Assembly: GCA_016281335.1 (NCBI GenBank)
Contig: JAEEIK010000157.1
Coordinates: 1-40,801 of the forward strand
Length of the DNA stretch: 40,801 nt
DNA from: Lachnospiraceae bacterium
GTDB taxonomy: Bacteria; Bacillota; Clostridia; Lachnospirales; Lachnospiraceae
Reading direction: 5' to 3'
The notes below the pieces were generated by a model. That model had not been told where the DNA came from. It did no database searches and was given only the letters and a program-made list of their open reading frames with translations. The position numbers and the translations under genes were made by a program. Shown here one piece after another: positions 15,616 through 38,887 of this stretch (the first letter of the stretch is position 1; every line of letters starts with the position of its first letter).

Positions 15616-15649
15616 ATCATACTACATGGGGCGTAGCAAAAGTGAAGCA
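15616..15649 (-). promoter_or_regulatory. direct-repeat (SARP-like) promoter, site A
   Basis: On the minus strand TGCTTCACTTTTGCTACGC (15649-15631) contains two TGCT units 11 bases apart, followed by exactly 9 bases and the -10 box TATGAT (15621-15616). The 19-mer is identical at site B and differs by three bases at site C, and the 9-base gap to the -10 box is the same in all three. It lies 46 bases before the start of the 932-residue gene. There is no normal -35 box, so an activator bound to the repeats is likely. Confidence 0.75.
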
Positions 15650-15662
15650 AAAATGATATACT
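15631..15662 (+). promoter_or_regulatory. possible divergent promoter using the same direct repeats
   Basis: Read on the plus strand, the repeats of site A (AGCA units 11 bases apart, 15631-15649) are followed after 7 bases by TATACT (15657-15662), about 30 bases before the ATG at 15693. The element sits between two divergent genes of the same kind and could switch both. The plus-strand -35 position has only a poor match (TAGCAA), so this too would need an activator. Confidence 0.4.
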
Positions 15663-15692
15663 TATAAAAAATAATTTCAGGAGGTGACATCT

Positions 15693-16202
15693 ATGCCGGC
15701 TGCTAAGAAAAAACAAAACAATCCCGATATCAAACTTCCCTTAAAACAGCTTCTCGAAAAGGAAAAGCAGATCGTAAAAGCCGCCGAAAGACTTGATGAC
15801 TACCTTGCTACCCTCTCTCCCGGAATGATGGACCGCATCATGACCGATGAGAGCACTCCCGAAGTCAATGCCGCCAGAAAGGAAGTCAGCCGTCTTCTCG
15901 ACAATGTCATGAACCTTCAGGAAAGCATGTCCAAAGAAGCCGACAATTTCAAAGAAGCTTCCTCAGAGGTCCGTAAGAAGATCAGCTTTGAAGAGCTTAA
16001 CCGCCAGGAGAAGAAAGCCACCGCACGTCATAACAAAAAGCAGGATAAGCTGAAAGAGCTCGCTGCCGCCGATGTCAAATCCGGTCCCGTGCTCGAAGAC
16101 GGCGAAGGGCTTCTCCTTCCGAAAGACCGCCAGAAACAGCGCAGTGTTAAACGACGCGAAAAGACTCTCGAAAAAGAGTCCAAAGGCGGTCCTTCACTAT
16201 AA
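15693..16202 (+). CDS. small charged helical protein with SFEEL motif, unknown function
   Basis: A 169-residue Lys/Glu-rich helical protein and the only clear plus-strand gene in the window. The ATG at 15693 is chosen over an in-frame GTG at 15684 because AGGAGGTG lies 7 bases before it. Its start, MPAAKKK, resembles the MPAAEK start of the 217-residue protein at 17755-18408. Residues about 93-106 read VRKKISFEELNRQE, the best copy of a motif shared with the proteins at 16797-17762 (RKKMSFAELNEKE) and 37976-38794 (RSRISLDTLEGEN). The C-terminus is basic and flexible (RSVKRREKTLEKESKGG). No membrane segment. It converges with the 194-residue gene, overlapping it by 6 bases. Candidate T4SS substrate by context only. 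Confidence 0.8.
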   Translation: MPAAKKKQNNPDIKLPLKQLLEKEKQIVKAAERLDDYLATLSPGMMDRIMTDESTPEVNAARKEVSRLLDNVMNLQESMSKEADNFKEASSEVRKKISFEELNRQEKKATARHNKKQDKLKELAAADVKSGPVLEDGEGLLLPKDRQKQRSVKRREKTLEKESKGGPSL

Positions 16203-16781
16203 GATCTTCACTTTGACAGGAGGTTTTAAGACCTCCTGTTTTTCTTTTTCCGGCGCATTTCTTAAATTTCTTGCGCTTTTCTTAAGTCCGTCTCCCTGCA
16301 TATCTTCAAAACGCAGCCTGACACGGCTTAATTCTGCTTTTACCATCAGTCTGTCATTTTTCTCAAATTCTATATCACGGTCATCTTTTCCCGGATGCAG
16401 CTTTCTTATGGCCGCAGATACTGCCTTCAGCGGAACAAACATCAGGGTTTCCATACCGACGCTTATCCCCGGAATATAACTGATATCATTCAATACCAGG
16501 AATTCCCTTATCGAATCAAGTAAGCGTATACGTCTCTCTATGGCCTCACGTTCCTTTTCCTTCTCTGCCTCTTTAAGTTCTTTTTCAAGCTGCTTACGTC
16601 TCTCCTCCGCCTGTCGTAAACGTTCCGCGCGTTCTTCTTCAGTCTCCCCGTCTGATGATAAATTCAAAAGACAGCCTTCTTCCAGTGCTTCCACTGTTTC
16701 TTCATAATCCTGCAGGCTGTCCAGATTGTCCATGATCTCCATGAATACATCATGAAGGAAGAATTCCAGTTTTTCATTCAT
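16197..16781 (-). CDS. charged coiled-coil protein, unknown function
   Basis: A 194-residue protein. The N-terminal 50 residues are acidic and helical, residues about 50-90 form a strong Arg/Glu coiled coil (EEERAERLRQAEERRKQLEK), and the C-terminal half is basic, containing LSRVRLRFEDMQGDG, a loose match to the S-F-x-x-L motif of its neighbours, and ending in PPVKVKIL. AAGGAG lies 12 bases before the ATG. It is the third gene of a unit with the 217- and 321-residue genes (15-base gap), under the promoter at 18450-18483. Its last codons lie inside the terminator of the convergent plus-strand gene. I do not recognise the family. Confidence 0.75.
   Translation of the reverse strand: MNEKLEFFLHDVFMEIMDNLDSLQDYEETVEALEEGCLLNLSSDGETEEERAERLRQAEERRKQLEKELKEAEKEKEREAIERRIRLLDSIREFLVLNDISYIPGISVGMETLMFVPLKAVSAAIRKLHPGKDDRDIEFEKNDRLMVKAELSRVRLRFEDMQGDGLKKSARNLRNAPEKEKQEVLKPPVKVKIL
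16216..16249 (+). terminator. intrinsic terminator of the plus-strand gene, inside the opposing coding region
   Basis: A perfect 9-base stem, ACAGGAGGT (16216-16224) and ACCTCCTGT (16231-16239), with a 6-base loop is followed on the plus strand by a T-rich run. It lies 14 bases after the stop of the 169-residue gene. The same bases encode QEVLKPPV near the C-terminus of the convergent gene. Confidence 0.8.
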
Positions 16782-16796
16782 AGCAAAAGCTTCTCC

Positions 16797-17762
16797 TTAT
16801 CTTTTACCAAAGAAACTCTCCAGTTTCTTTCCGATATCGCGCTGCGGACTTTTTGCTTCCCTGTTTATCTCCCGCTTTTTGGGCTTCCCTGCATTTTCCT
16901 TCTCATTCAGTTCCGCGAAACTCATCTTCTTCCTGCTCTCGTTTTTTTTTACCCTGTGCCGTTCCGAAACATCTATAAGTTCTTCCATCCTGGCATCCAG
17001 CCTGCCCTGCATTTCATCAAGCGGTTCCCGGCTTCCGAGTTTCTTTCCTTTTTCATCTATGCCCTTTGCAAATTCTTTGGTAAACTCTGCCAGTTCTCGA
17101 ACCTCTGCCGAAGTATTTGTCTTTGCAAAAGCATCCGCGCTGTCCATGAGCGAATTTGCCGCCTTACTTATCTCATCTGCGCTCATCGATACATCCGTGC
17201 GGAGAAAGGCATGTACCTCATCCCTGAGTTTTCTGTATTCATCGCCCTTCCAGCCATAGCTCTCGGTATCCTCAAGCATATCCGAGTATTCAAAGAGCTT
17301 ATCCTGTCCGTCCTGTATCATCTCTTCAAGCATATCCAGGGTTTCCAGCTTTTTGCCCACATCCTTAAGCTCCGCCTCGCAGTCCTCTTCCCCCATGGTC
17401 TTAAGCCCCGCATCATCGGTAAGTCCCTTTGATGCGTATACTTCTTCCCTTCTTATCACATCGCTTATTCCCTGCAGTTCACGGACATGCTCTGCAATGG
17501 GGCTTTCAAGATAGATCGCTATCTTCTTATCCAGTTCCTCTGCTGCCGCGGTCCATTCAGGCGAATCCTGCTCACAGTCCTGCAGTCTTATCATCGCATT
17601 TCTGAGGGCAGAATGATCCATGCTCCATGTATCGTCGATAAGACTGTCCATGCGCCTCATATTGAGCCCCAGGAGATATTCTCTCTCATATTCGCTCCTG
17701 TATGAACTTTCTCCCATTGTTCCTTTTACATCCATCTCTTTCTCCGGACGCTGTTCAGACAT
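16797..17762 (-). CDS. charged helical protein with SFAEL motif, unknown function
   Basis: A 321-residue acidic, almost wholly helical protein without signal peptide or membrane helix. The ATG (MSEQRPEKEMD) is chosen; an in-frame TTG 12 bases upstream is possible but has no ribosome site. The ATG overlaps the stop of the 217-residue gene by 8 bases, implying coupled translation. Near the C-terminus comes RKKMSFAELNEKEN, then a basic tail (KPKKREINREAKSPQRDIGK) ending in FFGKR. The same motif is in the proteins at 15693-16202 and 37976-38794. A basic, flexible C-terminus after a helical body is common in T4SS substrates recognised by VirD4 proteins, but also in many other proteins. Confidence 0.75.
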   Translation of the reverse strand: MSEQRPEKEMDVKGTMGESSYRSEYEREYLLGLNMRRMDSLIDDTWSMDHSALRNAMIRLQDCEQDSPEWTAAAEELDKKIAIYLESPIAEHVRELQGISDVIRREEVYASKGLTDDAGLKTMGEEDCEAELKDVGKKLETLDMLEEMIQDGQDKLFEYSDMLEDTESYGWKGDEYRKLRDEVHAFLRTDVSMSADEISKAANSLMDSADAFAKTNTSAEVRELAEFTKEFAKGIDEKGKKLGSREPLDEMQGRLDARMEELIDVSERHRVKKNESRKKMSFAELNEKENAGKPKKREINREAKSPQRDIGKKLESFFGKR

Positions 17763-18408
17763 TTGCCTTTTCAAACAGCCACGTCTGATCTTCCGTCCTT
17801 TCCCCTTCGGGTTTTTTTTCCAGTATGGCCTTAAGCTCTTTTAAATACATCTCCCTGTTGCCCTCAAGGCCGCTGGTCTCTTTATCAAGATTATTAAGAA
17901 AGCCTTCGATCTCTTTATTCAGATTCCCGTCTTTATCAAAACGCTGATCATAAAGCTTGCCCAGAAATACCTCATCTCCCGGACGGTCCCAGCCGCCCCA
18001 CTTCATACTTTCAAGGAAGCCCTCTTTATCCGCTTCATGCCTTTCGCGCATTACTTCAAAAGCAAGACCGTTCATATATTCCTCGATGACTCTCTTCTCT
18101 TCATCCGCTATGCTTTCCCATTTACCGAGTTCCCTGAGTATTTCCCTTTTGTTTTTCGCCGGGCTTTTCTCTGCTATCTTTGTATCAAACAGGAACTCAT
18201 ATAATTCGCCCCCGCGCTTCAGCTCCGATTTGGTCTCGTAGGTACTTGCCGCTTCATTTTTCTTCTGAGCCTTAAAGTAACTGTCAAAAAGCGCATCAAT
18301 GACCTTTCCGTCACCGTCTTCTTTCCAGTTATTTCCTATGAGCTTGGCTTTAAACTCTTCCCTTGAGTATTCGGTCTTTGCGATAACTATCTTTTCCGCA
18401 GCCGGCAT
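17755..18408 (-). CDS. charged helical protein, unknown function
   Basis: A 217-residue Glu/Lys-rich, predicted helical protein with several Trp residues (NNWKEDGDG, KWGGWDRPGDE). It begins MPAAEKIVIAKTEYSREEF, a start shared in part with the plus-strand 169-residue protein. No signal peptide, no membrane segment, and no clear S-F-x-x-L motif. A strong CAGGAGGG site precedes the ATG. It is the first gene of a three-gene unit behind promoter site B and directly follows the end of the two-component kinase gene, which is separated from it by that promoter. Family unknown. Confidence 0.75.
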   Translation of the reverse strand: MPAAEKIVIAKTEYSREEFKAKLIGNNWKEDGDGKVIDALFDSYFKAQKKNEAASTYETKSELKRGGELYEFLFDTKIAEKSPAKNKREILRELGKWESIADEEKRVIEEYMNGLAFEVMRERHEADKEGFLESMKWGGWDRPGDEVFLGKLYDQRFDKDGNLNKEIEGFLNNLDKETSGLEGNREMYLKELKAILEKKPEGERTEDQTWLFEKANV

Positions 18409-18449
18409 CTTAAAACCCTCCTGTTTTCTTTCTCATCCGGCTTGCCCAC

Positions 18450-18483
18450 ATTTTACCAGCTTAGGCGTAGCAAAAGTGAAGCA
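18450..18483 (-). promoter_or_regulatory. direct-repeat (SARP-like) promoter, site B
   Basis: The minus strand carries TGCTTCACTTTTGCTACGC (18483-18465), identical over 19 bases to site A, then 9 bases and the -10 box TAAAAT (18455-18450). The ATG of the 217-residue gene follows about 42 bases later. It lies between the histidine kinase stop (18496) and the three-gene charged-protein unit, giving that unit its own start. Confidence 0.75.
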
Positions 18484-18495
18484 GGCCTGAATCAC

Positions 18496-19722
18496 TTATT
18501 TTTTCGGCATTATCACGCTGACGGTGGTCCCGTCCTCGCGCTTGTCTATTATCAGACGGCCTCCGCACTGGGCCGCAAGCCTTCCTCTTACGTTTTTGAG
18601 TCCCACACTCTGTCTGTTCTTCTGTTTTTCAGTGGAATGATCGTCACCCTGGCCGTCATCGCTCACCCTTATCACCACCTGATACGCATCTTCCTCGGTC
18701 TCCACCACTATGCGTCCTCCTACGGAATGGGTGCCTATGCCGTATCTGATGGCATTTTCCACTATGGGCTGCAGTATCAGCGGCGGCATCATGAAATCCT
18801 CCGCTCCGAGTCTGTATTCCACTTCAAATTCCCTTCCGTCGCTTAACTGCTCCAGCTTGATATACTCCCCGGTATGCTCCATTTCACGTTTGAAGGGTAT
18901 CAGTTCATTGGCGGTAAGTGATTCTAAGTTTCCTCTCAGATACTCCGAAAAATGAGCTATCGCAGGCTTTACCTTTTCCGGTTCGTCATCACAGAGTCCC
19001 TGTATCACCTGCAGGGAGTTAAAGATAAAATGCGGTGATATCTGCTGCATCAGCAGCCTTACCTTCGTATCAGCCAGCTCTATATCCCTTTGCATCAGCT
19101 CATTTTCGGTCTGTACCTGATAATTCATATATGCGATCTGATACATCAGCGTCATGCCGAAAGCCGTGAGTCTTAGGTAGGGAATCATCATCTCCAGCAC
19201 ATGCAGAAAGATCGGCAGCATTACAGCCGCGCCGAGCCACAGTCTCCTGTTCTCATGTCCGAGGCTTAAGATTATGTACATGAAGGATATAAAAAGCTGT
19301 ATCGCTCCGAAGATCGGATATACACCTCCCTCAAAATCAAGTAGCAGTTCCGCAGGTATATAGAGCGCGGTCAGTATCGCTATCAGCCTTACCGGCAGCC
19401 TCTCCGCTCCCTTTTTCTCAGTGCCGCCACAGATATAAAAGCTGAAGGATATATTGGAAAATGATGCAAATATTCCCGAAAAAAGCAGCGTAAGCTTTAC
19501 CAGCATCTCCTTGTCCATCTGCTTCTGCCCGCAGAGTTCGCTTGTCAGACATTCCCCTGCCTCACCGATGAAAAGAGCCAGCAGCAGAAACAGAAGTCCC
19601 GCATGGAAATACCTTACCAGCTCGTCTTCTCTTTTCCTGCCGAAAGATGCCAGGATAAGGAACACCAGGAGCACTGCCGAGAGAAAGGAAGCAGCGGTAT
19701 TAAAGAGTACGAGTCCGCTCAT
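18496..19722 (-). CDS. LytS/YehU-type sensor histidine kinase
   Basis: A 408-residue kinase. Residues about 1-205 hold six hydrophobic segments with no separate extracellular domain. The phospho-accepting region QQISPHFIFNSLQ (His near residue 228) is of the His_kinase (PF06580) type found in LytS/AgrC-like kinases. ATP-binding motifs follow: PIVENAIRYG near 325, VSDDGQG near 356, and GLKNVRGRL. The ATG overlaps the stop of the membrane-protein gene (ATGA), so it is the third gene of a response-regulator/membrane-protein/kinase operon. The signal is unknown. It presumably phosphorylates the receiver-SARP regulator at 20420-21250. Confidence 0.93.
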   Translation of the reverse strand: MSGLVLFNTAASFLSAVLLVFLILASFGRKREDELVRYFHAGLLFLLLALFIGEAGECLTSELCGQKQMDKEMLVKLTLLFSGIFASFSNISFSFYICGGTEKKGAERLPVRLIAILTALYIPAELLLDFEGGVYPIFGAIQLFISFMYIILSLGHENRRLWLGAAVMLPIFLHVLEMMIPYLRLTAFGMTLMYQIAYMNYQVQTENELMQRDIELADTKVRLLMQQISPHFIFNSLQVIQGLCDDEPEKVKPAIAHFSEYLRGNLESLTANELIPFKREMEHTGEYIKLEQLSDGREFEVEYRLGAEDFMMPPLILQPIVENAIRYGIGTHSVGGRIVVETEEDAYQVVIRVSDDGQGDDHSTEKQKNRQSVGLKNVRGRLAAQCGGRLIIDKREDGTTVSVIMPKK

Positions 19723-20423
19723 CTTATGTGCCTCCCTTCCTGGGCTTTTTCAAGCCTTATCCTCCAGATATTTCCTATGGCATCCCTGATCGCGAAATAT
19801 ATGGGCACATCCAGAATTATCACTATCAGCCTCATGACAAAGGTGGCAGTGGCAAGTATTCCGGCCATTATTGCCAGTTTCCCTTCTGCAGGTACAAATA
19901 TGTCCGCCACGCCGAACATCACCGCCGATATCCCCAGGGATATATACAGGATAGCGCCCTTTCGGCATCTTGCCGCCTGTTCGTTTTTCTTAACTTCCTC
20001 AAGAAGCCTGGCAAAACAGCCTATCATGACTCTGTAAGCAATAACAAAACACAAAAGTGAAGCATTCTCCGCCATGCTGGCGCAGCCCTGCATAAATCCC
20101 CGTTTTTCACTGAATTCGGAAATATAGCTGAACTCATTTGTCAGCATCGCGATAAAACACAAAAGCATCCTGAAGAACAAAAGCTGCCATACGATGCCGA
20201 AATCATCATGCAGCCCTTTTATGCCGTATATACAGCTCATGAACAGCACGAGAAAGAGCATATCCAGGGAAAAAAGACTGACGGACAGTATGCTCCTAAG
20301 CGCCGCATCTTTCGTCAGCAGATCCAGAGCGTTCATGACAACAAAAAAAGCTAACGAACTCACGAAACATACCAGCATGAGCGTCGTCAGATTTTTAAGG
20401 GTTTTCTTGTTTACCCGCTTCAC
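19719..20423 (-). CDS. six-helix membrane protein in a two-component operon, unknown function
   Basis: A 234-residue integral membrane protein with about six hydrophobic segments and short charged loops (RLLEEVKKNEQAARCRKG between helices). The GTG start overlaps the response-regulator stop by 4 bases and has GGGAGGAG before it; the stop overlaps the kinase start by 4 bases. Its size, helix count and placement resemble the membrane part of the neighbouring kinase without a catalytic domain, so it may be an accessory sensor. No family is recognised. Confidence 0.75.
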   Translation of the reverse strand: MKRVNKKTLKNLTTLMLVCFVSSLAFFVVMNALDLLTKDAALRSILSVSLFSLDMLFLVLFMSCIYGIKGLHDDFGIVWQLLFFRMLLCFIAMLTNEFSYISEFSEKRGFMQGCASMAENASLLCFVIAYRVMIGCFARLLEEVKKNEQAARCRKGAILYISLGISAVMFGVADIFVPAEGKLAIMAGILATATFVMRLIVIILDVPIYFAIRDAIGNIWRIRLEKAQEGRHIR

Positions 20424-21250
20424 CAGTCTCCTCCCTTACCGGTCTCCAGGTATTCCTCGGACATATCGTAAAGATTTCCTATACGCATCTCCGCCCAGTA
20501 ATACTGGGTCATATATTCTCCCTGGAACAGATTCACCGCTGCGGGTTTTCCTTTGAGGAAATCGTAATAATCACAGTCTATCTTGGCCTGGTCCACACTC
20601 CAGGAATTCCAGTCCTTTCGTATCACATCTTCAACTCCCTCTTTTCTGAGGTCAAGCTTGAGACTGCGCAGCAACGCCCTGCACTGGGCTTTCAGGCCGG
20701 TATCGGCTTCCCTTTCTTCCCAAAGGGCGGTACACAGTTCATTGACGCTGACTCCCGCTCCGCGTCTGTCCACCAGATAAGCAAGTGTTTCCTTCGCCTT
20801 CTGTCTGGAAAAGTGAATGGGTTCTCCTTTTTCGTTAAAAGCCTCAAAATTCCCGAAGCATTGCACATTCAGTCTGCTCATCCGCCTCGGCGCCATCGGG
20901 GTCCTTAAGTTTTCTATCTCCGCCTGCAGTTTTTCAACACTTGCCGGTTTGAGCACGAAACCGCTCACATGCAGTTGATGCGCATCCAGCGCGTATTCGG
21001 AATGTCCGGTCACAAAGACTATGTTGCTTTTTGGCGATAGTGTCTTGATCTTCATGGCCATTTCCAGACCGTTGATCTTCGGCATCTCTATATCAAGCCA
21101 CACTATTTCCGGATGCTTTTCGTCTATCAGTTTAAGCGCCTCTTCCGGATCTTTTACTGCCAGATGCTCCCCCTCCGGCTCTATCTCCATCATCAGTTTG
21201 GCGGTCTCTTTGGCGATAGTCAGTTTATCGTCCACTGCAATTGTGATCAT
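20420..21250 (-). CDS. response regulator, receiver plus SARP-like DNA-binding domain
   Basis: A 276-residue regulator. The ATG at 21250 (MITIAVDDK) is chosen because GGAGGAAG lies just before it; an upstream in-frame start would add an Ala-rich stretch with no homology. Residues 1-115 are a receiver: acidic pair VDD, phospho-acceptor Asp in WLDIEMP near 52, conserved Thr in FVTGH, Lys in LKPAS. Residues about 125-225 are a winged helix of the OmpR/SARP kind (LNVQCFGNFEAF, SRQKAKETLAYLVDRRGA, ELCTALWE), followed by a short BTAD-like end (CDYYDFLKGKP, LFQGEYMTQYYWAE). It starts an operon with a membrane protein and a LytS-type kinase. SARPs bind direct repeats 11 bases apart upstream of -10 boxes, the pattern at 15616, 18450 and 38854, so it is the prime candidate regulator of those sites. 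Confidence 0.92.
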   Translation of the reverse strand: MITIAVDDKLTIAKETAKLMMEIEPEGEHLAVKDPEEALKLIDEKHPEIVWLDIEMPKINGLEMAMKIKTLSPKSNIVFVTGHSEYALDAHQLHVSGFVLKPASVEKLQAEIENLRTPMAPRRMSRLNVQCFGNFEAFNEKGEPIHFSRQKAKETLAYLVDRRGAGVSVNELCTALWEEREADTGLKAQCRALLRSLKLDLRKEGVEDVIRKDWNSWSVDQAKIDCDYYDFLKGKPAAVNLFQGEYMTQYYWAEMRIGNLYDMSEEYLETGKGGDW

Positions 21251-21268
21251 AACTTCCTCCATTAATAA

Positions 21269-21287
21269 GGCGGCAGCCGGTGCCGCC
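21269..21287. other. strong GC hairpin before the response-regulator gene
   Basis: GGCGGCA (21269-21275) and TGCCGCC (21281-21287) pair perfectly around a 5-base loop. On the minus strand only TTATTAAT follows, so it is at best a weak terminator for the chemoreceptor gene upstream. It ends 18 bases before the response-regulator start and could act in its leader. Confidence 0.5.
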
Positions 21288-21291
21288 GCCA

Positions 21292-21360
21292 CGCCCCTTT
21301 CCAAAGGCTTCTACCCGGAGGGAGAAGCTGTCGGCACGAAGTGCTGACTGATGAGGGGCA
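21292..21360. repeat. REP-like double-hairpin repeat
   Basis: Two adjacent hairpins: GCTTCT/AGAAGC (21307-21312, 21323-21328) and GTCGGCAC/GTGCTGAC (21330-21337, 21341-21348, one mismatch), followed by TGATGAGGGGC. The layout (GAGAAGC, a TCGG..CTGA hairpin, TGATGAGGGG) resembles short intergenic palindromic repeats common in gut Firmicutes. It fills the gap between a chemoreceptor gene and the response-regulator operon. Confidence 0.55.
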
Positions 21361-21364
21361 AATT

Positions 21365-23110
21365 TTACACTCTGAAATAACTGATCGTATCGGTAAGGTC
21401 TGCTGCAAGGGTCTGAAGCTTTGTGGCAGATTCGCTTATCAGCGTAAATGTTGCATTGAGTTCTTCCATTGAAGCATTGGTCTCTTCTGTGGAAGCTGCA
21501 TTCTCTTCGGATATGGCTGACAGATCCGAAATGATCTCCATCAGGCCGTTCTTCGCATCCGTAAGTTCCGCTACACGACCGGTAATGTCTGCCGAAGTAT
21601 CCTTCACCTTTACAACGTTGCCGTTCATGGTCTCCATATTGGTCTTTGTATCTTCCAGCTGGCGGGACTGTATACCGAAGGACTCGTTCAGCTTTTCCAT
21701 TACCGACACGGATGAAGCCGCATCGGCAAGCAGCCTGTCAACAATGGATTTGATCTCATCTGCACTGTGGGATGACTGGTCTGCCAGTGCCCTTATCTCA
21801 TCCGCAACTACAGCAAAACCGCGGCCCGCATCACCGGCTCTTGCAGCTTCGATGGAAGCATTGAGTGAAAGCAGGTTGGTCTGGGTAGCTATATCTGTAA
21901 TAGCCTGCGTAAACTCGGATATGGATCTTGCCGATTCATTGGTGGAACTTATGGTGGCTCCTATGTCCTTAACGGAAGCCGTTACCTCCTCACTCTGTTT
22001 GATCAGCTTATCAAGAGCATCCATGGCCTTGTCACAGGCATCCTTCATCTCTTCCGCATACCTGTCCATATCCTGAACGTTGCCCGCAATATTCTCGATA
22101 TTCCTGCCTATGTCGTCGGTATCGCCTGCAGCTGTCTCCACGCTCTCTGCCTGGGAAACGGCACCCTTGCTTATCTCCGTTACCGCATCCGTTACCTGTT
22201 CGGATGCCATTGAAGCCTGGTCCGCCGAATCAGCCAGTTCCGTACCTGCTGCAGTCAGTTCTCTTGCCATTTCATTTGACTTGCTCATGACTTCAGTCAT
22301 CTTGGCAGAGAGCAGCTTCGCGCTTCTTGTTATGGTTCCCACATCATCGTTGCCTATCTCACTGTCATCAGGGAATTCCACATTCAGATTGCCGCCTGCC
22401 AGTTCATCAAGATTCTTAGTGACTGTCTTTATGCCTATCCTCAGCATTCTGATCGCGCTTACAACTATGATCGCTATAAGCAGCATAAGTATTCCGAAAA
22501 CTAAGGACACCAGGAATATCTTATTGGCTATGACTTTCTGCAGATGCTCATACTCTTCCGCTGCCCACTGTTCCACCAGTTCCTGCATCTCATTGATACG
22601 TTCTCTGGCATTATCGAATTTAAGATTGAAATCCGACCAGTCACCTGTATTCGTTCTTACGTTATAAGACATCTGCCAGGCTTCAAATTCTTTCTGGAAC
22701 TCCTCCTTTGTCTCTTTAAAACTTAAGCCGGCTGAGCTCTTCATTTCATTGCAGAGCTTGTTGTCTTTGGATGCTGCCTCCATAGCCGTATTCATTCGCT
22801 GCAGCACCTGTGAAGTATTATCATCATAATCGGCAAGATAACCGTCAACTAAAGCGGCATCCATGCCTTCCATGTTTTTAAGTTCCCTGTATCCCGTAGC
22901 TCCGAGCAGAGCCTGATAGAAATCCCTGTCGCCGTTGAGAAGCGCCGAACTGGCGGTATAGAGGACATCATAATAGATCTCCGTCATCTGCTTTTCCACC
23001 TGGTTCATTTCGCTTGCCATCACTATGACGGAAACCAGAAGTGCGATCGCCAGCGGCACCGAGATGATCAGAAGCTTTGCCCTTACGCTAATGTTATTTA
23101 ACCACTTCAT
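21365..23110 (-). CDS. methyl-accepting chemotaxis protein
   Basis: A 581-residue chemoreceptor. One membrane helix near the start (residues about 12-32), an outside helical domain of about 160 residues (probably a four-helix-bundle sensor), a second membrane helix (about 195-218), a HAMP linker with the usual [14 protein letters not shown] turn, and a long cytoplasmic coiled coil. The signalling tip has [19 protein letters not shown] and [20 protein letters not shown], where CheA and CheW bind. From about residue 300 to the end it is nearly identical to the receptor at 23335-25035, and both end SISYFRV. AGGAGGAT precedes the ATG. No pentapeptide tether for CheR/CheB is seen. The ligand is unknown. 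Confidence 0.95.
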
Positions 23111-23141
23111 TCTAATCCTCCTCTTCTCTCTTTATGATGAT

Positions 23142-23173
23142 AAAAAAAGGGGTGGGCAGATGCCTGCTCACCC
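23142..23173 (-). terminator. intrinsic terminator hairpin upstream of the chemoreceptor gene
   Basis: On the minus strand GGGTGAGCAG (23173-23164), a 4-base loop and CTGCCCACCC (23159-23150) form a 10-base stem with one mismatch, followed by seven Ts (to 23142). It lies between the predicted promoter at 23182-23210 and the ATG at 23110, so it may stop transcription arriving from the upstream receptor gene or act within the leader. Confidence 0.7.
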
Positions 23174-23181
23174 GCTGATTA

Positions 23182-23210
23182 ATTTTACTATAAAATCCCC
23201 TCTCTGTCCA
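23182..23210 (-). promoter_or_regulatory. promoter of the chemoreceptor gene at 21365-23110
   Basis: On the minus strand TGGACA (23210-23205), a 17-base spacer and TAAAAT (23187-23182). The predicted start point, near 23175, falls right at the base of the terminator-like hairpin. No sigma-D (FliA-type) consensus was found for either receptor gene. Confidence 0.55.
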
Positions 23211-23256
23211 GCGAAAATAGTATATTATGCTCAAAAAAACATATCTGAGATGCAAG

Positions 23257-23322: not shown

Positions 23323-23334
23323 TCGGCAAATTGC

Positions 23335-29531: not shown

Positions 29532-29577
29532 CTTATTCACTCAGTGCTTTTCTTATCTAAGCAATCCTGTTCTCCGC

Positions 29578-29688: not shown

Positions 29689-29695
29689 GTCAGCT

Positions 29696-29724: not shown

Positions 29725-29728
29725 CAGT

Positions 29729-32137
29729 TTATGTTCTGATCCTTATATCCATAAGCGTGCACAGATCACCCGTCAGCGCCACAAGGACATCCTCCGCATC
29801 ATAGGGCAATACTGTTGTGCAATCCAGACTGATGCCTGCATTTTCCGTGGTAAAGCGGATCCTGTTCTTTCTTCTGCTGAAATCGATCTCGTAATCAAGT
29901 CCTTTACTGTTCTTTTTCTTCCAGTAATCCCAGCCCGCAAATTCGCTGCTCTTATGGACTATGAGCTTATTCTTTCCTTCTCCCTCATCCGTGGCATCAT
30001 CCCCGTCCAGACGTATGCATGCATATTCACGGTAGCCCTTGCCGCCAACGTTTCCGTCCTCGGATGAATAAAGAAGAACATAAGCGCAGTGGTGTACAAG
30101 ACTGGCCATGGGCAGTGTCTGGGTACGGAAGAATATCCTCATTCCGTCTGCAACCGGAAGCCCCGGTGTATAGGCTTCTCTGTAGCCGTCCACTTCCACA
30201 TTCGGTATGTCCCCGTCCTTCCTCGTGAAATAATTAACCTCGGGCGCTATCCTTGAAATAGGCGCATCTTCGGTATTCAGGGACACTTCCTTCACATGGA
30301 TCTTCCTCACACTGCAGTGTTCTCCGGTAAGTCCGAGATATACGAATCTTGTGGCATCCGGAAGCGCCACCGTCACTTGTGCGGATATATAGGGCGAGTT
30401 TATGCTCAGCCTTACATGATCCTTAAGATTCACCGCCTCTATCTCATAGGTGATCCAGACATTGCCTTCCGCTTCTTCAAGCACATCCTTTTCACTGACC
30501 TTTGCTTTTATATCCCTTGCCGAAGTACAGATGGTATGGCCGTCCATCCATATCTCACCGAATTCGAAATACTTAAGGTTTCTTATACTGCTTTCGGTTC
30601 TGTGCACACAGGTATCCAGAGAATCAAACAGCACTATGGCCGGTATGGATTTCTTTTTGTCAAAGCCCTCATCCGGCCTTGCTTCGAATTTGACCTTCAG
30701 ATACTCTTTGGACAGCTTTAAACCGTCGGATACTATCTGCTTATACTCATCAAAATGCATGGCGCTGACTTTGGTCAGATCATATCTGTCAGACTCGTCC
30801 ACATTTTCCTCATCGGTCTCACGCATCAGATAATCGGTGTCCCTGTCGATCATGCGTATCATGATGTCCACTATCTTCGGATCGTACTCCCTGCCTGCAC
30901 CTTCCTTAAGAAGCTCACGTACTTTTCCCTGGGCCAAAGGATCACGCCCCTCCTTGTAGGATGTCATCTCATCATAAGCATCCGCAACCGCTACTATACG
31001 TGCTGTCAGGGGTATGGCTTCTCCCTGAAGTCCTTCCGGATAACCTTTTCCGTCATATCTTTCGGTATGATACAGAGCAGCGGTCTTCAGGTAAGGCTGC
31101 TCCTCCAGCTGTGACAGAAGTTTTTTTGTGACCTCGGGCAGCTTCCTGAGCATCTTTTCCTCGCTCCCCGTCAGTCGTCCGCTCTTTCCCATAAGTGAAT
31201 CCGGAAGCGTAATGTACCCTATGTCATGCAGTGCAGCCGAATAATATACCCTGAAGCATTCCCTGTCATCCATTCCCAACTCGCCTGCTATCTCACGTGA
31301 ATAAGCCGCCACTCTCAGTGAGTGTCCTTTTCTGAAACCGCCTCTTTCATCAAGCGCATTGACTACGGTTTTTGTCAGCTGTTCAAAACTCCGTCTTAAG
31401 GAAAGGCTCCTTTTATGCGCATCATCCAGCTCTCTCAGCTGGGCTTTCTCCAGCTTTTCGTTAAGTTCCGATATTGCAAATGCATACAGCACTATGCCCA
31501 TGCCGACTATAGCCATATTGGTAAGAGATACACCGTAGAAGAACGCCTGGAATATGGATGCGACCATGGGAAACACCGTAAAGAGTAACAGAGGTACGCT
31601 TATGTAAAGGTTCAGACGCTTAACATACTGTATGATGACCGATAACTGGAACAACAGTGCAAGGAAGGGAATGATGTAACATATAATGAAGCCCGGGCCC
31701 CTCTGATATGCGTTGTTCTCATCAAAGTAGTAATACAATCCCGTAAACTGTGATATGACGACCATAAGCCATCCGACAGCACATATTATCTCAACTATCC
31801 TGAGTCTCATGGGCACGGTATTGAGCTCCATCTCGTTCCTGCACAGATCCGCAAGATACAGATTGAAACTGTGTACCACGGATATGGTCATAAAGAACAC
31901 AAGGAAATTACTTATCCTTACCATGTGATAAGCGGTATCCCCCGATATTCCGTGATATACATATGCAAGGCGGTCCGAATACAGCAGTATGCCGGCAGCA
32001 AATTCAAGATGCGCAAGGGCCCGCTTTCTTTTTTTCGGTATCGACCTTGTGAGCAGCGCCATTATGCCGACAACGACGCAGACACTGGACAGTCCCAGCA
32101 TGATATTCAGTTGATGAGCTTCCAGCCAGCTAAACAT
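29729..32137 (-). CDS. membrane HD-GYP protein with duplicated C-terminal domain (predicted c-di-GMP phosphodiesterase)
   Basis: An 802-residue protein. Residues about 10-230 hold seven membrane helices with short loops, an intramembrane sensor. A short coiled linker leads to an HD-GYP domain (about 260-425): [28 protein letters not shown] near 304 (HD metal site) and [13 protein letters not shown] near 362 (GYP), so c-di-GMP hydrolysis is likely. After it come about 330 residues that I do not recognise, predicted beta-rich and containing two related ends ([16 protein letters not shown] near 635 and [16 protein letters not shown] at the C-terminus), so a beta-sandwich seems duplicated in the cytoplasm. 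The start overlaps the hybrid-kinase stop by 8 bases with GAGGAAACAAAGG before it. Confidence 0.9.
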
Positions 32138-35100
32138 CCTTTGTTTCCTCTTTTTCTTCCGGGATAAGCATCATGCTTTCCGGAAGATGCTTCATTATCA
32201 CATGCTCTACAGCTATTATATCAACAGGTTTCAGCAGGTAACCGTTATAGCCTTTCGACAGATAGTACTCTTCTCCTCCCGATGCACTGCTGTCGGTAAG
32301 CGCATATACCGGCAGCTTCGGATGGTCTTTTCTTATCTTCGTTATGACCTCGTTCCCGTCCGTTCCCGGCATCATATGATCCAGCAGTACCACATTGATA
32401 TCGCTGCTCTCTATCTTTTCCAGGCATTCTTCGGCGCTTCCTGCCGTGGTCACAAATACGCCGGTAGGTTTTAAAAGTCCCTTGATCACATTCAGGTTCA
32501 CCGGATCGAAATCCGCCACAAGTATATCCGCATCCGGAGCGATAAACTGCGGTTTATATGTTTTATTTTCATCATCGGCGCCGTCTTCGTCAAATATTCC
32601 TACAGGCGTCTCATCCACGATCTTCTGCCTGAGCGTAAACAGAAACTCGCTTCCTTCACCGTAAACACTCTCGCACTTAAGTTTTCCGCCCATCATTTCA
32701 GCAAACTTGTATGAGATATCCAGGCCAAGACCTGTTCCCTTTATAGCGGATGCCCTCACCTCATCCATTCTGTCATAGACTGAGAACAGCATATCCAGTT
32801 CTTCCTTCTTCATGCCCCGGCCGGTGTCCTTAACGGTTATGATAAGACCGACTCCGGCTTCGTTTCTCTCCGTTACCCTTATGCCAAATTCAATGCTGCC
32901 TTCTTCCGTAAATTTCACTGCATTTGTCAGAAGGTTCATTATGATCTGTTTTATCTTGCCTCCGTCACCATACAGTCTTTTGGGCAGTCCTTCATCAATG
33001 TCTGTCGTAAACTTAAGTTTCTTTTCTTCTGCCCGCTCACGTATCACGGCTATGATGCTCCTGAGCATTTCCCCGGTAGCATATTCCTGTTCTATTACAT
33101 ACACCTTACCCGTCTCTATGCTTGAAACATCGATCAGATCATTGATCAGCGCCATCAGCGATTCGGAAGCATATCTGATGTCTTTCGCATAGGAATTAAC
33201 CGCCCCGTAATACTCTTTCGGAACATTCCTGTTATCCTCACGCAGTATCATCTCATCCATGCCGATGATCCTGTTGATGGGAGAACGTATCTCCTGACTG
33301 ATGTTTGCAAGAAATCTGGACTTGGCGGAATTGGCTTTCTCCGCTTCTTCCTTTGCTTCCTGTATCTCTATATACTGCTTTCTTATGATGGTACCGCTCA
33401 TGATACGCCACACTATAACGCCTATTGTGGCCAGTGCAATGAGCATTATCGCCATTCTTACAGACATCCTTTCAAAGAATTCAGGATCCTTTACGATCTT
33501 ATATGTATTTCCGCTCAGCACTTTTTTAGTCACATCGTCAAGTATCTGTACATGGAGGGTGTACTCGCCATAACCCAGTCCGGTAAAGACGAGGGGTGTC
33601 AGTCTGCTCTGTTCCGCAGTGATACCCATATCCCCGCTTCCTTCCAGATACATCCTTACTATGGGATCGGATACGGTATAATCAAGAATGGCCGGCGTGA
33701 TCTGTATACGGCCGTTACCCGCAGGTATACGGTATATGCCCGCCTCATCCGGCATTATTTCTGTACCGTCATAGTTTACGGATCTTAAGGCAATGAGCAT
33801 ATTACCGGACAGATCGTAAAAATTTTCTATGCTTGCCGCGGATACTCCGCTCTGTCCGGCTATATACACTATACCGTTTTCTCCTATACCGCTGTAGCTG
33901 TGGGAGACAGGTATGCTGGTAAGTCCGTTGGAAGTCTCATAAAGCTTATAGTTCTCTATCTTATCCGCAAGGACTGCATCTGCCCTGACGGAGTATATGC
34001 CCTTTGATGACAGGAACCACAGCTCATCATCTCCGCGCTCCAGTACATCAAAGACATTGTTATACGGGAAGCTGGTAACATTGCATACCATTCCGTCTTT
34101 TATGTATTCTACGGTACTGGAGGTGATGACCCAGAGGACTCCTCTTTTGTCATCTCTCCTGATGCGCATGATAACCTCACTGGCAAGTCCCTGTTCCATT
34201 CCTATCCTTTTATATGAATCATCACCGATCACATATATGCCGTCTCCGTCAGTTCCCGCATATATGCTACCGTCCGCTCCTTCACAGACTGTCAGTATGA
34301 TCGTATTCTTAAGCCCCTGCCTTGCCCCGTAGCTCTTTATGACGCTGTCGTCTCTGATTACTGCCACGCCCGCATTGGTCCCCACTATGATTGATCCGTC
34401 GGAAGCCTCATATGTGCATCTGATCTCGTTGCTTGGCATTTCATCATAAACGGTAAAAGCTTTCAGCTCCCCGTCGCTGTTCAGGCGCACGAGTCCCTGG
34501 CTGCCCGAGAAGGTCGAAAACCACAGACTGTTCCTGCTGTCTTTCATGATGCAGCGTATCCTTGTGCCTTCAAAATATTCGGTCAGGCCGTTTTCGATGC
34601 TGTGGTAATCTTCATCTATGATCTGCAGTCCCTTATCAGTTCCTATATACAGTAAACCGTCCCTGTAACAGCTGGCATTTACCACTTCGGACTCAATTCC
34701 CGCCGCTCCTGTAATGTCAAGGAAATTATCGGCCACCAGCTTCATCACTCCGTATCTGGAAGATGCAAACCATATATTTCCCTGCAGGTCCGAAGTCATC
34801 ATCTCGAAGGAATCTTTTACCGGCAGACTGTCAAAGGCTGTAAATTCATCATTCTCATTGATATAACCGGCAGCATGCACGGAAGCTATCCATAATCTGC
34901 CGCAGGCATAATGCATCCAGTGAATGTCGGAAAGCGGCGCCGTATCGAGCCTTTTCATCTCGGCTGCCGACTTACCGAAAGTTCCGTAATACACATGGTC
35001 CCTGCTTGTGCCAAAATACAGGGTTCCCGGTTTTTCGGGATCTGCAAGTATCGTTGTGATCTTTCCTATACCCAGCTCGGAACTCCTGTAGAATTCCTCC

Positions 35101-35774
35101 ACTCCCGAAGTCCTTAGTTTAAATACACCGCCCTCCGATGTGTGTCCGTATACCTTTCCGTCGGCATCGGATACCAGCCTGAGTATCCTTTGGCCCTTTA
35201 TCCTCTCATCATCAATAGGATGGATCTTCATATCTGTATCAAAGTAATTAACGCCTGCAGTGGAAGCCACAAAAACATTGCCCTCAGCATCCTCGGCGAA
35301 AGATCTGATGGAATTGGAGTTAAGACCGTCAGACTTCATGAAGTGTTCCTGTTTCTGTCCGTCTATCACCACCACGCCCTTGTCATTGGTAGCTACCCAG
35401 ATCCTTCCGTTTGAATCTTCAAACAATCCGCGTCCGCTGCTCAGACCGTTATCGCCGGGCAGCTTTTCAAATCTGACACCATCATATCGGATTATTCCGC
35501 TGTATCCGCCTATCCAGATATAACCGTCACTCGAGGCCAGGACACAGTTAGCTTCCGAGGTCGGCAGCCCGTTGGTCGCATCGTATAAGACCGGCAGAAA
35601 ATATACGCCGGGTATCTGGTTGCTAGCCGCATAACCGCCGCCTACAGGATGGTCATTCCGATCGCTGCCGCTGTCTTCCTCCTGGGTCGCATGCACGTAA
35701 AAATATCCGCATGTCGATGACATGAGAAGAAATGCGAGCAGTATGACTATTGTCCTTATCCTTAGTCTTTTCAT
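32130..35774 (-). CDS. hybrid histidine-kinase-like protein with beta-propeller sensor, phospho-His missing
   Basis: A 1214-residue protein. A signal/anchor helix (about 7-28) is followed by an outside region of about 700 residues made of Reg_prop-type propeller repeats ([53 protein letters not shown]) and a Y_Y_Y-like domain, a membrane helix (about 775-795), a kinase core and a receiver. The histidine box reads [14 protein letters not shown]: codon 33294-33296 is CAG, Gln, where kinases have His. The ATP-binding domain looks intact (NLLTNAVKF near 948, [23 protein letters not shown]). The receiver has VLLDHMMPG near 1130, Thr in ALTDS and Lys in LLKPVD. It cannot autophosphorylate in the usual way. 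It overlaps both HD-GYP genes. Its ligand may be a polysaccharide fragment, as for similar propeller sensors. Confidence 0.92.
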
Positions 35775-37942
35775 ATCTCCTGGTATTTCTTAAGCACCTT
35801 TTTCACTTCGGTCAGAGACTCAATGAACACTTCCACGCACTTGGGATCAAACTGCGTTCCCGACCCTTCCTTTATTATCTGCACAGCCTTATCAAAGGGA
35901 AAAGCCGGTTTATATACTCGCGGCGATGACAGCGCATCGAACACATCCGCAATAGCCATGACTCTGGCCGACAGCGGAATCACCTCACCGTGAAGTCCCT
36001 CGGGATAGCCCTTGCCGTCCCATCTCTCATGATGATATGCAGCCATATTCCTGGCTTCTTTGAGATAGTTATCACCCTCCATGGAACTTATGGCATTTTC
36101 AAGTATATTCTTTCCTGCTGTCGTATGAGTCTTCATTATCTCAAACTCTTCATCCGTCAGCTTGCCCGGTTTATTAAGCACGGCATCGGGTATGTTGATC
36201 TTGCCCACATCATGGAGCGGGGCACTCATCTCCACATCCCTCATATACCTGTCACTTAATTTTTCCGCATAGTAACCGTTCCGCTTTAAACCCTGCAGTA
36301 TGATCCTTACATAGGCCGCAGTCTTCAGTACATGCGCTCCGGTATCCGAGTCCCTGCTTTCCACCATGTCCGCCATCGTGATCAGCAGCGTGCTCTGCAT
36401 CTTGGTGATGGATTCGGATTTGTTCCGGTTTTCCTTCAGCTGGTATACGGTCTCTCCGGTCATTCTGCAGAAGGCGTTGTAGAGCTGTTCCACCTCATCA
36501 CCGGTATGTATGTCCATTTTCTCTATCTTGTCAAGTTCCTCTTCACTGGCGCCGCTTTCGTCTACCATTTCATTGGCTCTCAACGTCATGCTCATGATCG
36601 GCATTACTATATGGTACTTGGTAGTCAGTATGCTTATTGCAACTATCAGCAGTATGAAGCCTGAAAAGATCAGCAGCACTCTCCCTGCATAATCACTTAT
36701 CATTTCATTAACACGCCTGTATTCCACATTTGATACCGCATAGCATACACAATTGCCCTCATCATCATAGACCGGATAATAAGATGCGATAAAGTTGCCG
36801 TACTGGTCATCCATCTTTACGGCCGGCAGCATTTCACCGGCAAGCAGCGCATCCTTATACGGAAGATAAGCCTCTTCATATTCCACTACGCTTCCCGGGC
36901 TTTCTCCGAATACATAACTGCCGTCGCTTAAGATCGTATTCAGATCGAACACAACATGACAGCCGTCTTTTTCTATCTTGTAAACATACAGAAAGGCTAT
37001 ATCGGGCGAACTGTTCTTAAGTATCTCAAGTCTTCTTCTGGTTTCATCATAACCCCTGGCCGCGTATCCCAGTTCCAGATATGTCTCTACTCTATCGGGA
37101 TCAATTATCTCCGATGCCAGATAGGCTATCTGTGACGCATCCGAAGACATATCTTCGATGGTAGTCTCCCGGAAGCTGCTTATACTGAAGATCACGGCGA
37201 TGACGGTCACCAGCAGGGTGGAAATGACAAGTATCAGGTTGATACGCAGTCCTATAGGCATCCTGCTTTTCAGCTTTCTCCTGGCATTTTCCTGTTCGTC
37301 AAAAGAAAGCGGCGTCTGTCTCCATGAAGACAGACGCACATAGTCTTTTACCTTTGCCGGAGTGATGCGTATCAGCAGCAGAGCTGCCGCAAGAGAGATA
37401 GCCTTGTCCATCAGATCGGTGATGTAGGTGCTTACCATATGGCTTCCGAAAGGGCCTAAGCCAAGATGCTTTCCCAGCCAGTCATATATAGCTACCGACA
37501 TGGGCGCATCAGAGGATGCCTCATACAGAAACCAGGTGATCGCACCGCCTATGCCGCCGCCTATCAGGGCCAGTATCAGTACATAGAAGATCAGATCGGC
37601 AGCGCTTCTTTTTTTCTCCACGCCGTATTTTTTTATTCTTTTGTATCTTGCGTAATCCCCGAACCATGCTGCGGTAACTATAGCGATCAGCATATTGAGG
37701 GAAGCATAGAATATAGACTCTCCGTCCATAAAGAAATTGACCGCATTCGTTGCAAAGGCCGTAATAATCCCCGGAACGATGCCGCCCAGCGCAGTCGCCA
37801 CTATCGTTCCTACAGTATCTATATAAAACGGCAGTCCCGTTCTCCTCACCGCCATTGACAGCAGTACATTCAGCAGAAGCGAAAACACCATCAATGAAAT
37901 AACGGCAGGATGAAATATGCTGTTTTTCTTTTGCCTGAACAT
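35771..37942 (-). CDS. membrane HD-GYP protein (predicted c-di-GMP phosphodiesterase)
   Basis: A 723-residue protein. Residues about 10-200 form five or six membrane helices resembling the membrane part of ECF-type S components and similar sensors ([39 protein letters not shown]). A Cache-like outside domain (about 255-400, [36 protein letters not shown]) lies between two further helices, then HAMP and an HD-GYP domain: [26 protein letters not shown] near 575 and [13 protein letters not shown] near 642, a complete set of catalytic residues. The stop overlaps the hybrid-kinase start by 4 bases. No good ribosome site lies at the ATG; AAAGGAT is about 20 bases away, so the start may be imprecise. 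Confidence 0.92.
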
Positions 37943-37975
37943 CGTGTGGGTTATCTTAAATATCCTTTCGTGATC

Positions 37976-38794
37976 CTATTTCGAGGCCTGCTTCCCATGC
38001 ATTTCTTTGGCACTCTCTTTGTTCTCGGCGTGCTCTCTCCTTACAGCAGGCTTCTTTTCGTTCTCGCCCTCCAGGGTATCGAGGCTGATCCTGCTCCTTA
38101 CTTTGATCCTGTCAAACTGTGCGGCCTTCTGGGGATCAACCATACGTAAGGCCAGGATGGCGTCCGCCACATTGGGATTTGTTTTTTCGTATGCTTTTTC
38201 CGACTCTATGAAGTGTTCTATTGCAGTGCCGGCTTCGGCCATATTACTGCACAGTCTTTCGCCGAGTATACTGCCGTAAGCGCCATATTTGGAAGCTGCG
38301 AACTTTTCTATGGCAGCTGTCATATCCGTGAATTCCGCTGACACCTTATTCCCGGCTTCATTTCCGTTTTCTTTCATCCGGTCTGCTATCCTGCCGGCTT
38401 CGTCAAGTTTGGCCCGGTCCAGCTTTTCATAGGCTCTCCACTGCGGAAGTTCTGCTCTCTCTTCGTCGGCATGAGTCTTCAGCCAGGGTTCGTCATATTT
38501 CCCGACTGCCTCTCTCAGAGCCTTTGCCTCAGGCGTATCTTCAAGCTTATCAAGTTCTTCGTTTACTGCCTTTAACAGCTCATCCATTACCAGATAAGGA
38601 TGGTCCATACAGCGTATATCTCCGTATTCCTCCTTCGGCGCACGTCCTTCCTTAAAGCACTCAATCAGTTTCTGAAAGGAGTGGTCTTCGGGCAGAGTAC
38701 GGCCAAGATCATAAACAGCCCCCATAAGCTCATAGGGCTCATTCCTGTAAGCTAAGGCACAGGCTTCATTTATAAACTCTTCCCTGCTTTGCAT
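37976..38794 (-). CDS. charged helical protein with SLDTL motif, unknown function
   Basis: A 272-residue Glu/Lys/Ala-rich, predicted helical protein with no signal peptide or membrane helix. Near residue 232 it reads VRSRISLDTLEGENEKK, the third copy of the motif seen in the 169- and 321-residue proteins 20 kb away, followed by a basic flexible C-terminus (PAVRREHAENKESAKEMHGK). AAGGAGAAG precedes the ATG, as in the 194-residue gene. It is driven by direct-repeat promoter site C and lies 33 bases before the HD-GYP gene with no terminator between, so it probably leads the c-di-GMP operon. Shared promoter and motif place it in the same group as the proteins near the T4SS. Confidence 0.75.
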   Translation of the reverse strand: MQSREEFINEACALAYRNEPYELMGAVYDLGRTLPEDHSFQKLIECFKEGRAPKEEYGDIRCMDHPYLVMDELLKAVNEELDKLEDTPEAKALREAVGKYDEPWLKTHADEERAELPQWRAYEKLDRAKLDEAGRIADRMKENGNEAGNKVSAEFTDMTAAIEKFAASKYGAYGSILGERLCSNMAEAGTAIEHFIESEKAYEKTNPNVADAILALRMVDPQKAAQFDRIKVRSRISLDTLEGENEKKPAVRREHAENKESAKEMHGKQASK

Positions 38795-38853
38795 CAGAGC
38801 TTCTCCTTCCTTTCATACTTTATTTCAGACGCTTCTTACGGCTATTTTCACAT

Positions 38854-38887
38854 ATTATAAAACAGCATGCGTAGCAAAAGCGTATCA
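38854..38887 (-). promoter_or_regulatory. direct-repeat (SARP-like) promoter, site C
   Basis: The minus strand reads TGATACGCTTTTGCTACGC (38887-38869), in which TGATACGC and TGCTACGC repeat 11 bases apart even more clearly than at sites A and B, then 9 bases and a perfect TATAAT (38859-38854). The ATG of the 272-residue gene follows about 60 bases later. The element starts 1 base after the stop of the MetH-like gene. Confidence 0.75.

Follow-up and report, generated by a model that had tools for sequence, protein, structure and literature searches.

A SARP-like promoter element shared by a type IV secretion locus and a dispersed family of candidate substrates in Lachnospiraceae

Introduction

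Activation of transcription from direct repeats with an 11-bp period is described for AfsR, where, in the part of the account drawn on here (PMC10936776), the 3′ repeat lies 8 bp from the −10 box and the 22-bp afs box spans −40 to −19. Protein delivery by type IV secretion systems (T4SSs) in bacteria with a Gram-positive cell wall has long been suspected and is hardly documented: the sections of a 2025 review on which we rely (PMC12857230) give protein export by the Streptococcus suis 89K T4SS as reported, apparently the first Gram-positive effector translocator of the superfamily, and treat effector-dedicated Gram-positive T4SSs as an open question. Here, we analyze a stretch of 40,801 nucleotides from a Lachnospiraceae bacterium (assembly GCA_016281335.1, contig JAEEIK010000157.1, positions 1–40,801 of the forward strand; "the window"), in which a promoter-like element made of two direct half-sites and a −10 box stands before a T4SS operon, behind the genes for a response regulator and a histidine kinase, and before genes for charged proteins. 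Taken together, the sequence comparisons below make it likely that the regulator activates a protein-delivering T4SS jointly with its substrates, via this one element. The genome of the window (G000) comprises 3.23 Mb in 159 contigs and is 93% complete; it was compared with a genus set of 35 genomes, for which all P values ignore the kinship between genomes, and with a family sample of 200 genomes from 199 genera.

Results

The element reads TGCTWCRC-TTT-TGCTACRC, that is, two 8-bp half-sites whose starts are 11 bp apart, separated by a TTT spacer that is nearly invariant in G000 and followed by nine bases and a −10 box. Its three copies in the window are all on the minus strand. Site A (15616..15649; TGCTTCAC-TTT-TGCTACGC-N9-TATGAT) heads the T4SS operon; site B (18450..18483; TGCTTCAC-TTT-TGCTACGC-N9-TAAAAT) lies directly downstream of the histidine kinase gene, i.e., directly behind the regulator/kinase operon, and heads three charged proteins; and site C (38854..38887; TGATACGC-TTT-TGCTACGC-N9-TATAAT) heads a 272-residue protein and, by gene order, HD-GYP genes. 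An earlier note on this DNA had located the three sites, and on re-reading its coordinates, the identity of A and B, the three differences in C, the nine-base spacing and the three −10 boxes all proved exact; the TG-x-T repeats that it took as the unit have the right 11-base period and are too short, the full half-sites being 8 bp long.

Scanning with the earlier note's pattern at up to 3 mismatches gives 3 matches in the window, each without a mismatch, against 0 in 100 shuffled sequences, and 19 matches in G000, against 0 in the reversed control. Random occurrence without −10 boxes, which the earlier note had named as grounds for giving up the idea of a regulon, is not what we see: among 21 elements with at most 2 mismatches, collected with no −10 box demanded, T-A-N-N-N-T is found exactly 9 bp downstream in 20, and the one exception (C116) has TATAAT 8 bp downstream. 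The 19-mer alone, again with no −10 box demanded and at up to 3 mismatches, is present at 23 places in G000 (3 in the reversed control), and a looser pattern, consisting of half-sites and TAnnnT only, at 25 (4 in the control). The element is spread over many separate contigs of G000, beyond the window.

The operon behind site A has the genes expected of a T4SS, all on the minus strand. The first gene (12772..15570) encodes a 932-residue acidic protein with a basic C-terminus (+5 over the last 50 residues), a putative substrate, and is followed by genes for a 187-residue acidic protein (DUF1292; 12104..12667), a STAS-domain protein (11780..12061), a CAAX/Rce1-like membrane protease (10904..11764), the coupling protein VirD4 (8844..10907; CD1115 family, 295.7 bits, cut-off 250), a 593-residue protein that looks exported by eye and has no match in Pfam or NCBIfam (7056..8837), a 398-residue VirB6-like membrane protein, named by eye from its place and look without a family search (5856..7052), a 904-residue VirB6-like membrane protein (3126..5840; MMCAP2_0566 conjugal family, 193.8 bits, cut-off 90) and the 914-residue ATPase VirB4 (341..3085), whose best match is the Mbov_0397 family of integrative and conjugative elements (ICEs) at 542.9 bits, below the cut-off of 590. 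VirB4, VirD4 and VirB6 are thus all present, VirD4 and the 904-residue VirB6 above their cut-offs and VirB4 below. The window ends inside the next gene, the start of which encodes a solute-binding-like lipoprotein (1..327, minus strand). The operon continues on another contig (C27), whose last 141 bases repeat the window's first 141 exactly; there, a further element heads genes for a 97-residue protein, a 409-residue exported-looking protein, a VirB2 pilin (PF18895, 39.0 bits, cut-off 26.6) and a 1428-residue lipoprotein-like protein, and then for a 220-residue membrane protein, a further VirB6-like protein and a 384-residue protein. The same gene order and three corresponding sites are found in G022, and a VirB2-like pilin (PF18895) is above cut-off in the loci L060 and L247. 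Among the scanned operon proteins, there is no Pfam match to VirB8 or to a peptidoglycan hydrolase (VirB1); the operon holds several large uncharacterized proteins. Divergent from site A is a 172-residue open reading frame (ORF; window 15684–16202, plus strand) that is 86% conserved in L090 (5619–6119, minus strand). T4SS loci also hold STAS proteins, such as the one in the window, and an anti-sigma-type HATPase (G029, L247:3745–4551), which suggests an additional partner-switching control of the machine.

To see what else the element precedes, we tabulated the first gene, i.e., the gene directly behind an element site, at 78 sites across 12 genomes; 22 of these genes are in G000. Twelve of the 22 encode large proteins without a strongly hydrophobic stretch, from 436 to at least 3298 residues (C32A, C65, C73, C127, C115, C156m, C7, C15, C67, C117, C116 and C120; four of them run off their contig), and the other 10 encode 217-, 272-, 111- and 97-residue proteins, two related lipoprotein-like proteins (C40a and C40b) and four others. 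Since one element stands before both parts of the T4SS operon and about a dozen large proteins, a single regulator likely switches on both. The observation in the earlier note that the sites head charged proteins is correct for sites A, B and C, and it had missed the T4SS and the family of large proteins. We compared 30 complete first genes from six T4SS genomes, each encoding at least 300 residues and no strongly hydrophobic stretch, with 89 other ORFs from the same pieces of sequence: the median length is 991 against 409 residues, and the net charge over the last 50 residues is +3.7 against −0.2 (P = 8e-8). Despite this basic end, the large first-gene proteins are acidic overall.

Half of the large G000 proteins share a domain of ∼150 residues that is common to otherwise unlike proteins. 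In most copies its end lies 5 to 125 residues short of the C-terminus (in C15 and its G022 counterpart the domain is far from it). The conserved core runs S-x-E-Y-x2-M-x2-A-L, followed by Y and further on by G-x2-R. Of the 657 ORFs in the fetched stretches, a combined domain model matches 30 at E ≤ 1e-3; 22 of these 30 are first genes, many of which stood in the model's training set; there are 0 matches among 657 reversed ORFs, and none of 25 aligned copies of the domain matches any Pfam family. Behind the domain comes a tail motif, roughly [RK]-x-[ILMV]-[SDN]-[LIMFV]-x-x-[LM] followed by an acidic residue, which starts 40–70 residues from the end in 22 of 25 occurrences. It is present in 14 of 40 element-defined proteins, some of which had been viewed before the expression was written; the fairer test is the set of 42 proteins found by the domain, some of them orthologues of the 40, where it is present in 11, against 2 of 338 background ORFs (P = 5.5e-10). 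Elsewhere in the same proteins it occurs at 0.0086 per 100 residues. A C-terminal region common to otherwise different proteins, as looked for in T4SS effectors, thus appears to be present.

We also asked whether the element can be recovered from the domain, using genes chosen by the domain and not by the DNA element in four genomes (G012, G019, G015 and G013). The score demanded an 8-bp direct repeat with an 11-bp period, then nine bases and a −10-like box, and used no half-site letters; the pass mark was fixed after a first look, and the training set of the domain model contained no G012 protein. The element was found before 20 of 31 domain ORFs and 5 of 78 other ORFs (P = 6.6e-10), the former being divided into 7/14, 6/7, 4/6 and 3/4 for the four genomes in the order given. 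The version recovered is [GA]CTTGCAC-NNT-[GA]CTTGCAC-N9-TAnnnT, most commonly with a TTT spacer. The five other ORFs that passed are two in the regulator stretch of G012 (L344), a 1913-residue ORF in G019, a 296-residue ORF in G012 and one ORF in G015 with the same kind of element, read on the opposite strand.

A regulon of this kind need not consist of exported proteins, and the large proteins might be intracellular, structural or surface-assembly factors rather than delivered cargo. It fits such a role that none of nine large G000 proteins tested has a Pfam domain above cut-off, and that some regulon members are lipoproteins or ordinary-looking enzymes. The variable bodies combined with one C-terminal domain, a tail motif and a basic end are, on the other hand, as in substrates recognized by their C-termini, and element-driven proteins of related genomes carry calpain-like or ABC1-kinase-like domains; we therefore consider a non-cargo role unlikely.

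Delivery of the large proteins as T4SS substrates is also in line with the distribution of the domain. In the genus set, the domain is found in 12 genomes, VirB4 in 11 (G000, G005, G012, G013, G015, G019, G022, G025, G029, G030 and G034; the match in G012 is a 97-residue piece) and both in 9, so that the domain is present in 9 of 11 genomes with VirB4 and in 3 of 24 without (P = 1.4e-4). In the family sample the corresponding numbers are 9, 14 and 8 (P = 4.8e-10, or 6e-9 without the own genome), and the one domain genome without VirB4 (G159) has a domain frame of 208 residues with a stop. Domain genes and VirB4 are on one contig in G186 and G153. A contig of another genus that also has VirB4 (G107:C95) shows seven consecutive domain matches.

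The same machine could instead be a conjugative element or its remnant, with the large charged proteins as passengers or "polyvalent" proteins sent along with DNA. VirD4 belongs to the CD1115 conjugal family, VirB4 matches an ICE ATPase family best and VirB6 matches conjugal families, and relaxases of family PF03432 do exist in G029, G005 and G019, on contigs other than that of VirB4. PF03432, the one relaxase family searched for, is nevertheless missing from 7 of the 10 genomes searched (G000, G022, G030, G013, G015, G034 and G025), no relaxase is recognized at the T4SS locus among the scanned proteins or by eye among the flanking ORFs, and the putative substrates are spread over many contigs with promoter elements of their own, all of which makes a conjugative role distinctly unlikely. 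Two genomes without the domain or a full-length regulator have a T4SS VirB4 (62% identical; G025:C32 and G034:C16); these T4SSs are possibly ordinary conjugative versions of the same machine.

The proposed activator is encoded at 20420..21250 on the minus strand, from an ATG; with a TTG start, the ORF extends over 20420–21304. It is a response regulator with a receiver domain (PF00072) and a SARP-like winged-helix DNA-binding domain, and is followed on the same strand by a 234-residue protein, hydrophobic by eye and without a Pfam match (19719..20423), and by a histidine kinase (His_kinase, HATPase_c; 18496..19722), its proposed partner, homologues of which are co-located elsewhere. A profile of the DNA-binding domain from 13 regulators, compared with solved structures, has EmbR as its best match (E = 5.6e-4) and lists AfsR at E = 0.5, so that a winged helix of the SARP type (ODB) is found by distant match, and the 11-bp direct-repeat promoter typical of SARPs seems to be there as well. 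The earlier note had described this gene as a receiver-plus-SARP regulator; the gene is as described, but Pfam searches detect no BTAD domain in the regulator (E ≤ 0.001) or in the 13 family members (E ≤ 0.05), and we therefore do not file it as a SARP but say that it works like one. No other protein of G000 matches at E ≤ 1e-15, and its relatives are in Lachnospiraceae, not actinomycetes.

The regulator gene is within ∼2 kb of a site in 12 of the 15 genomes with the element, i.e., G000, G022, G013, G019, G030, G014, G016, G028, G032, G011, G012 (L344) and YSB2008 (L159); in G029 it is ∼28 kb from a site on the same contig, and G015 and G005 have the gene on a different contig from the sites. 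Within the genus set, a full-length regulator (E < 1e-45, a cut chosen after seeing the list) is found in 18 of the 23 genomes that have a T4SS or phage-sheath gene versus 2 of the 12 that have neither (P = 9e-4). The half-site is TGCTWCRC in G000 and G022 (DNA-binding domains 93% identical), TGCAACAC in G029 and G005, [GA]CTTGCAC in G013, G030 and G019 (90–94%), TGTTGCRC in G011, G016, G028 and G032 (76–82%) and TGTTGGAC in G014, and the DNA-binding domains are 35–54% identical between clades; the five half-site versions thus appear largely to track the lineage of the regulator. The two halves tend to change together, as would be expected from tandem binding by two copies of one domain. That the element belongs to another regulator, either a common response regulator of the OmpR/PhoB type or an alternative sigma factor for which the element would be the −35 region, is very improbable: PhoB-class activators likewise use 11-bp direct repeats that replace the −35 box, and 11 of the 13 family members have weak matches to Trans_reg_C in the DNA-binding domain (best E = 9e-6), but from one genome to another both halves vary jointly (TGCAACAC twice, GCTTGCAC twice, TGTTGGAC twice), a pattern that fits a single protein bound in tandem rather than a sigma factor, and the gene repeatedly found beside the sites is the same response regulator.

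The link between this switch and injection machines seems to be a general one. In G011, G014, G016, G028 and G032, the regulator and the element are present and there is no VirB4 match. A site in G014 heads a protein with a partial match, below cut-off, to the contractile-injection protein CIS13, and a similar protein is seen by eye beside the regulator in the other four. The phage-sheath family PF04984 is found in 12 of the 35 genus genomes (G002, G006, G010, G011, G014, G016, G018, G020, G023, G028, G031 and G032) and in 0 of the 11 genomes with VirB4 (P = 0.003), as if one injection machine excludes the other; the sheath gene, which was identified as a single core gene of a contractile system, could be prophage-derived. 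In G016 and G028 the sheath and the regulator are on one contig, ∼23 kb apart. Sheath genomes also have giant element-driven proteins, with 2740 residues and an ABC1-kinase-like domain in G014 (L273:1067–9289) and with 2920 residues and a calpain-like domain in G028 (L287:1154–9916).

The remaining features of the window lie behind sites B and C, on the minus strand. Site B heads genes for a 217-residue charged protein (17755..18408), which is 31% identical over 156 residues to part of the regulon protein C120, a 325-residue charged protein (16797..17774) and a 194-residue charged protein (16197..16781). The 325-residue protein has the tail motif (RKKMSFAELNEKE; 16896..16934), which begins 45 residues from the C-terminus, and its residues 177–305 match the C-terminal domain weakly (16860..17246; E = 6e-4, combined model only). 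The 272-residue charged helical protein behind site C (37976..38794), a putative substrate, likewise has the motif (RSRISLDTLEGENE; 38057..38098), starting 40 residues from the C-terminus, and a weak domain match at residues 131–260 (38015..38404; E = 1.6e-4, type II model only); AlphaFold predicts an all-helical fold, with a bundle at residues 118–222 and a tail of low confidence. An HD-GYP protein is encoded 33 bp behind the 272-residue gene (35771..37942), from which co-transcription may be supposed, and the element may thereby also reach cyclic di-GMP turnover. This HD-GYP gene adjoins those for a hybrid sensor kinase and a second HD-GYP protein (window 29729–37942).

Discussion

A regulon probably governed by the regulator in the window, as suggested in the earlier note, is supported in part, at the level of sequence, by an element found across the genome, by its SARP-like geometry and by the presence of the regulator gene near sites in most genomes that have the element; for the proposed extension to the HD-GYP operon, the evidence is gene order behind site C, and that part is not supported as it was put. 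In the mechanism that we propose, the membrane kinase would sense a signal and phosphorylate the regulator, two regulator domains would bind the tandem half-sites at the −35 position and recruit RNA polymerase, and production of the T4SS would coincide with that of its substrates. Capture of the substrates would then fall to VirD4, through their C-terminal domain, their basic tail or both. The T4SS has the build of a conjugative machine, with no PF03432 relaxase gene detected in G000, and would now export proteins, which it is predicted to pass into other cells.

Several observations weigh against joint activation of a T4SS and its substrates. Concerning the link between element and domain, 11 of the 31 domain ORFs in the cross-test are without the element (some are perhaps inner genes of operons), as are five domain ORFs of G000 in the fetched sequence (C89, C100 and three on C67), two of which run off their contig. 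Conversely, the domain models detect no domain in several first genes, namely those for the 932-residue protein behind site A, the 217-residue protein, C127 and C43, and the 272- and 325-residue proteins of the window are matched weakly, by one model each, so that their assignment rests on weak matches together with the tail motif. Not all sites head large proteins: C22, C37, C90 and C156p in G000 head small or ordinary-looking genes and C40a/b head lipoproteins, and across the 12 genomes the first gene reaches at least 300 residues at 47 of 78 sites, one site having no ORF. As for the regulator, 6 of 13 loci lack a convincing element in spite of its presence there (L165, L093, L167, L106, L108 and L101), although L093 may correspond to the G012 contig where the looser scan did show one, and YSB2008 has a TGTTGCRC-like version, yet its DNA-binding domain is 53–54% identical to those of G000 and G013 versus 45–50% to those of the TGTTGCRC clade. 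The domain is present in three genomes without VirB4 (G014, G017 and G028), while G025 and G034 have VirB4 but neither the domain nor a full-length regulator. Finally, VirB4 and VirD4 fall in families named for conjugation, and the relaxase search covered one family in an incomplete genome.

In a wider reading, Lachnospiraceae commensals would have a protein-injecting T4SS, a large effector arsenal with a new C-terminal targeting domain, one SARP-like switch and an exchangeable injection machine, the last because the same switch lies beside a contractile system in relatives and no genome among the 35 was found with both; for this we see the case as evenly balanced. In a single genome, the promoter signature and the domain jointly mark the machine, the regulator and the candidate substrates, and a corresponding list can be drawn up for relatives. 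If correct, the reading provides a sequence handle for finding such delivered proteins and takes control of the SARP-like kind beyond antibiotic clusters, to secretion in a different group of bacteria.

The T4SS, the two-component regulator and the SARP-like promoter are each of a known kind; for their combination, for the C-terminal domain and for the regulon, we found no description in the open-licence literature among the matches listed. The promoter resembles the afs box in that direct repeats with an 11-bp period lie immediately before the −10 box; with the −10 hexamer set at −12 to −7, the pair of 11-bp units would, by arithmetic, span −40 to −19, as given for AfsR in the portion of that account used here; it differs in having 9 bp between the second 8-bp half-site and the −10 box. 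Unlike SARPs, the regulator has a receiver domain in front, no BTAD match, relatives in Lachnospiraceae and secretion targets instead of antibiotic genes. The machine is closest to the conjugative T4SSs of the CD11xx and Mycoplasma ICE type, in whose NCBIfam families VirD4 and the 904-residue VirB6 fall and which VirB4 matches best, below cut-off; it is set apart from them by the absence of a PF03432 relaxase from G000, the linked two-component system and element, and the dispersed, co-regulated large proteins. With Gram-negative effector T4SSs it has in common a VirD4/VirB4/VirB6/VirB2 machine and co-regulated, dispersed modular proteins with conserved C-terminal regions, whereas here the machine is of the Gram-positive ICE type, the domain is absent from Pfam, the regulator is SARP-like and delivery is predicted. 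Compared with S. suis 89K, for which the consulted sections of the review have one protease reported, the present system would have a genome-wide substrate-like family with its own domain and a common promoter element.

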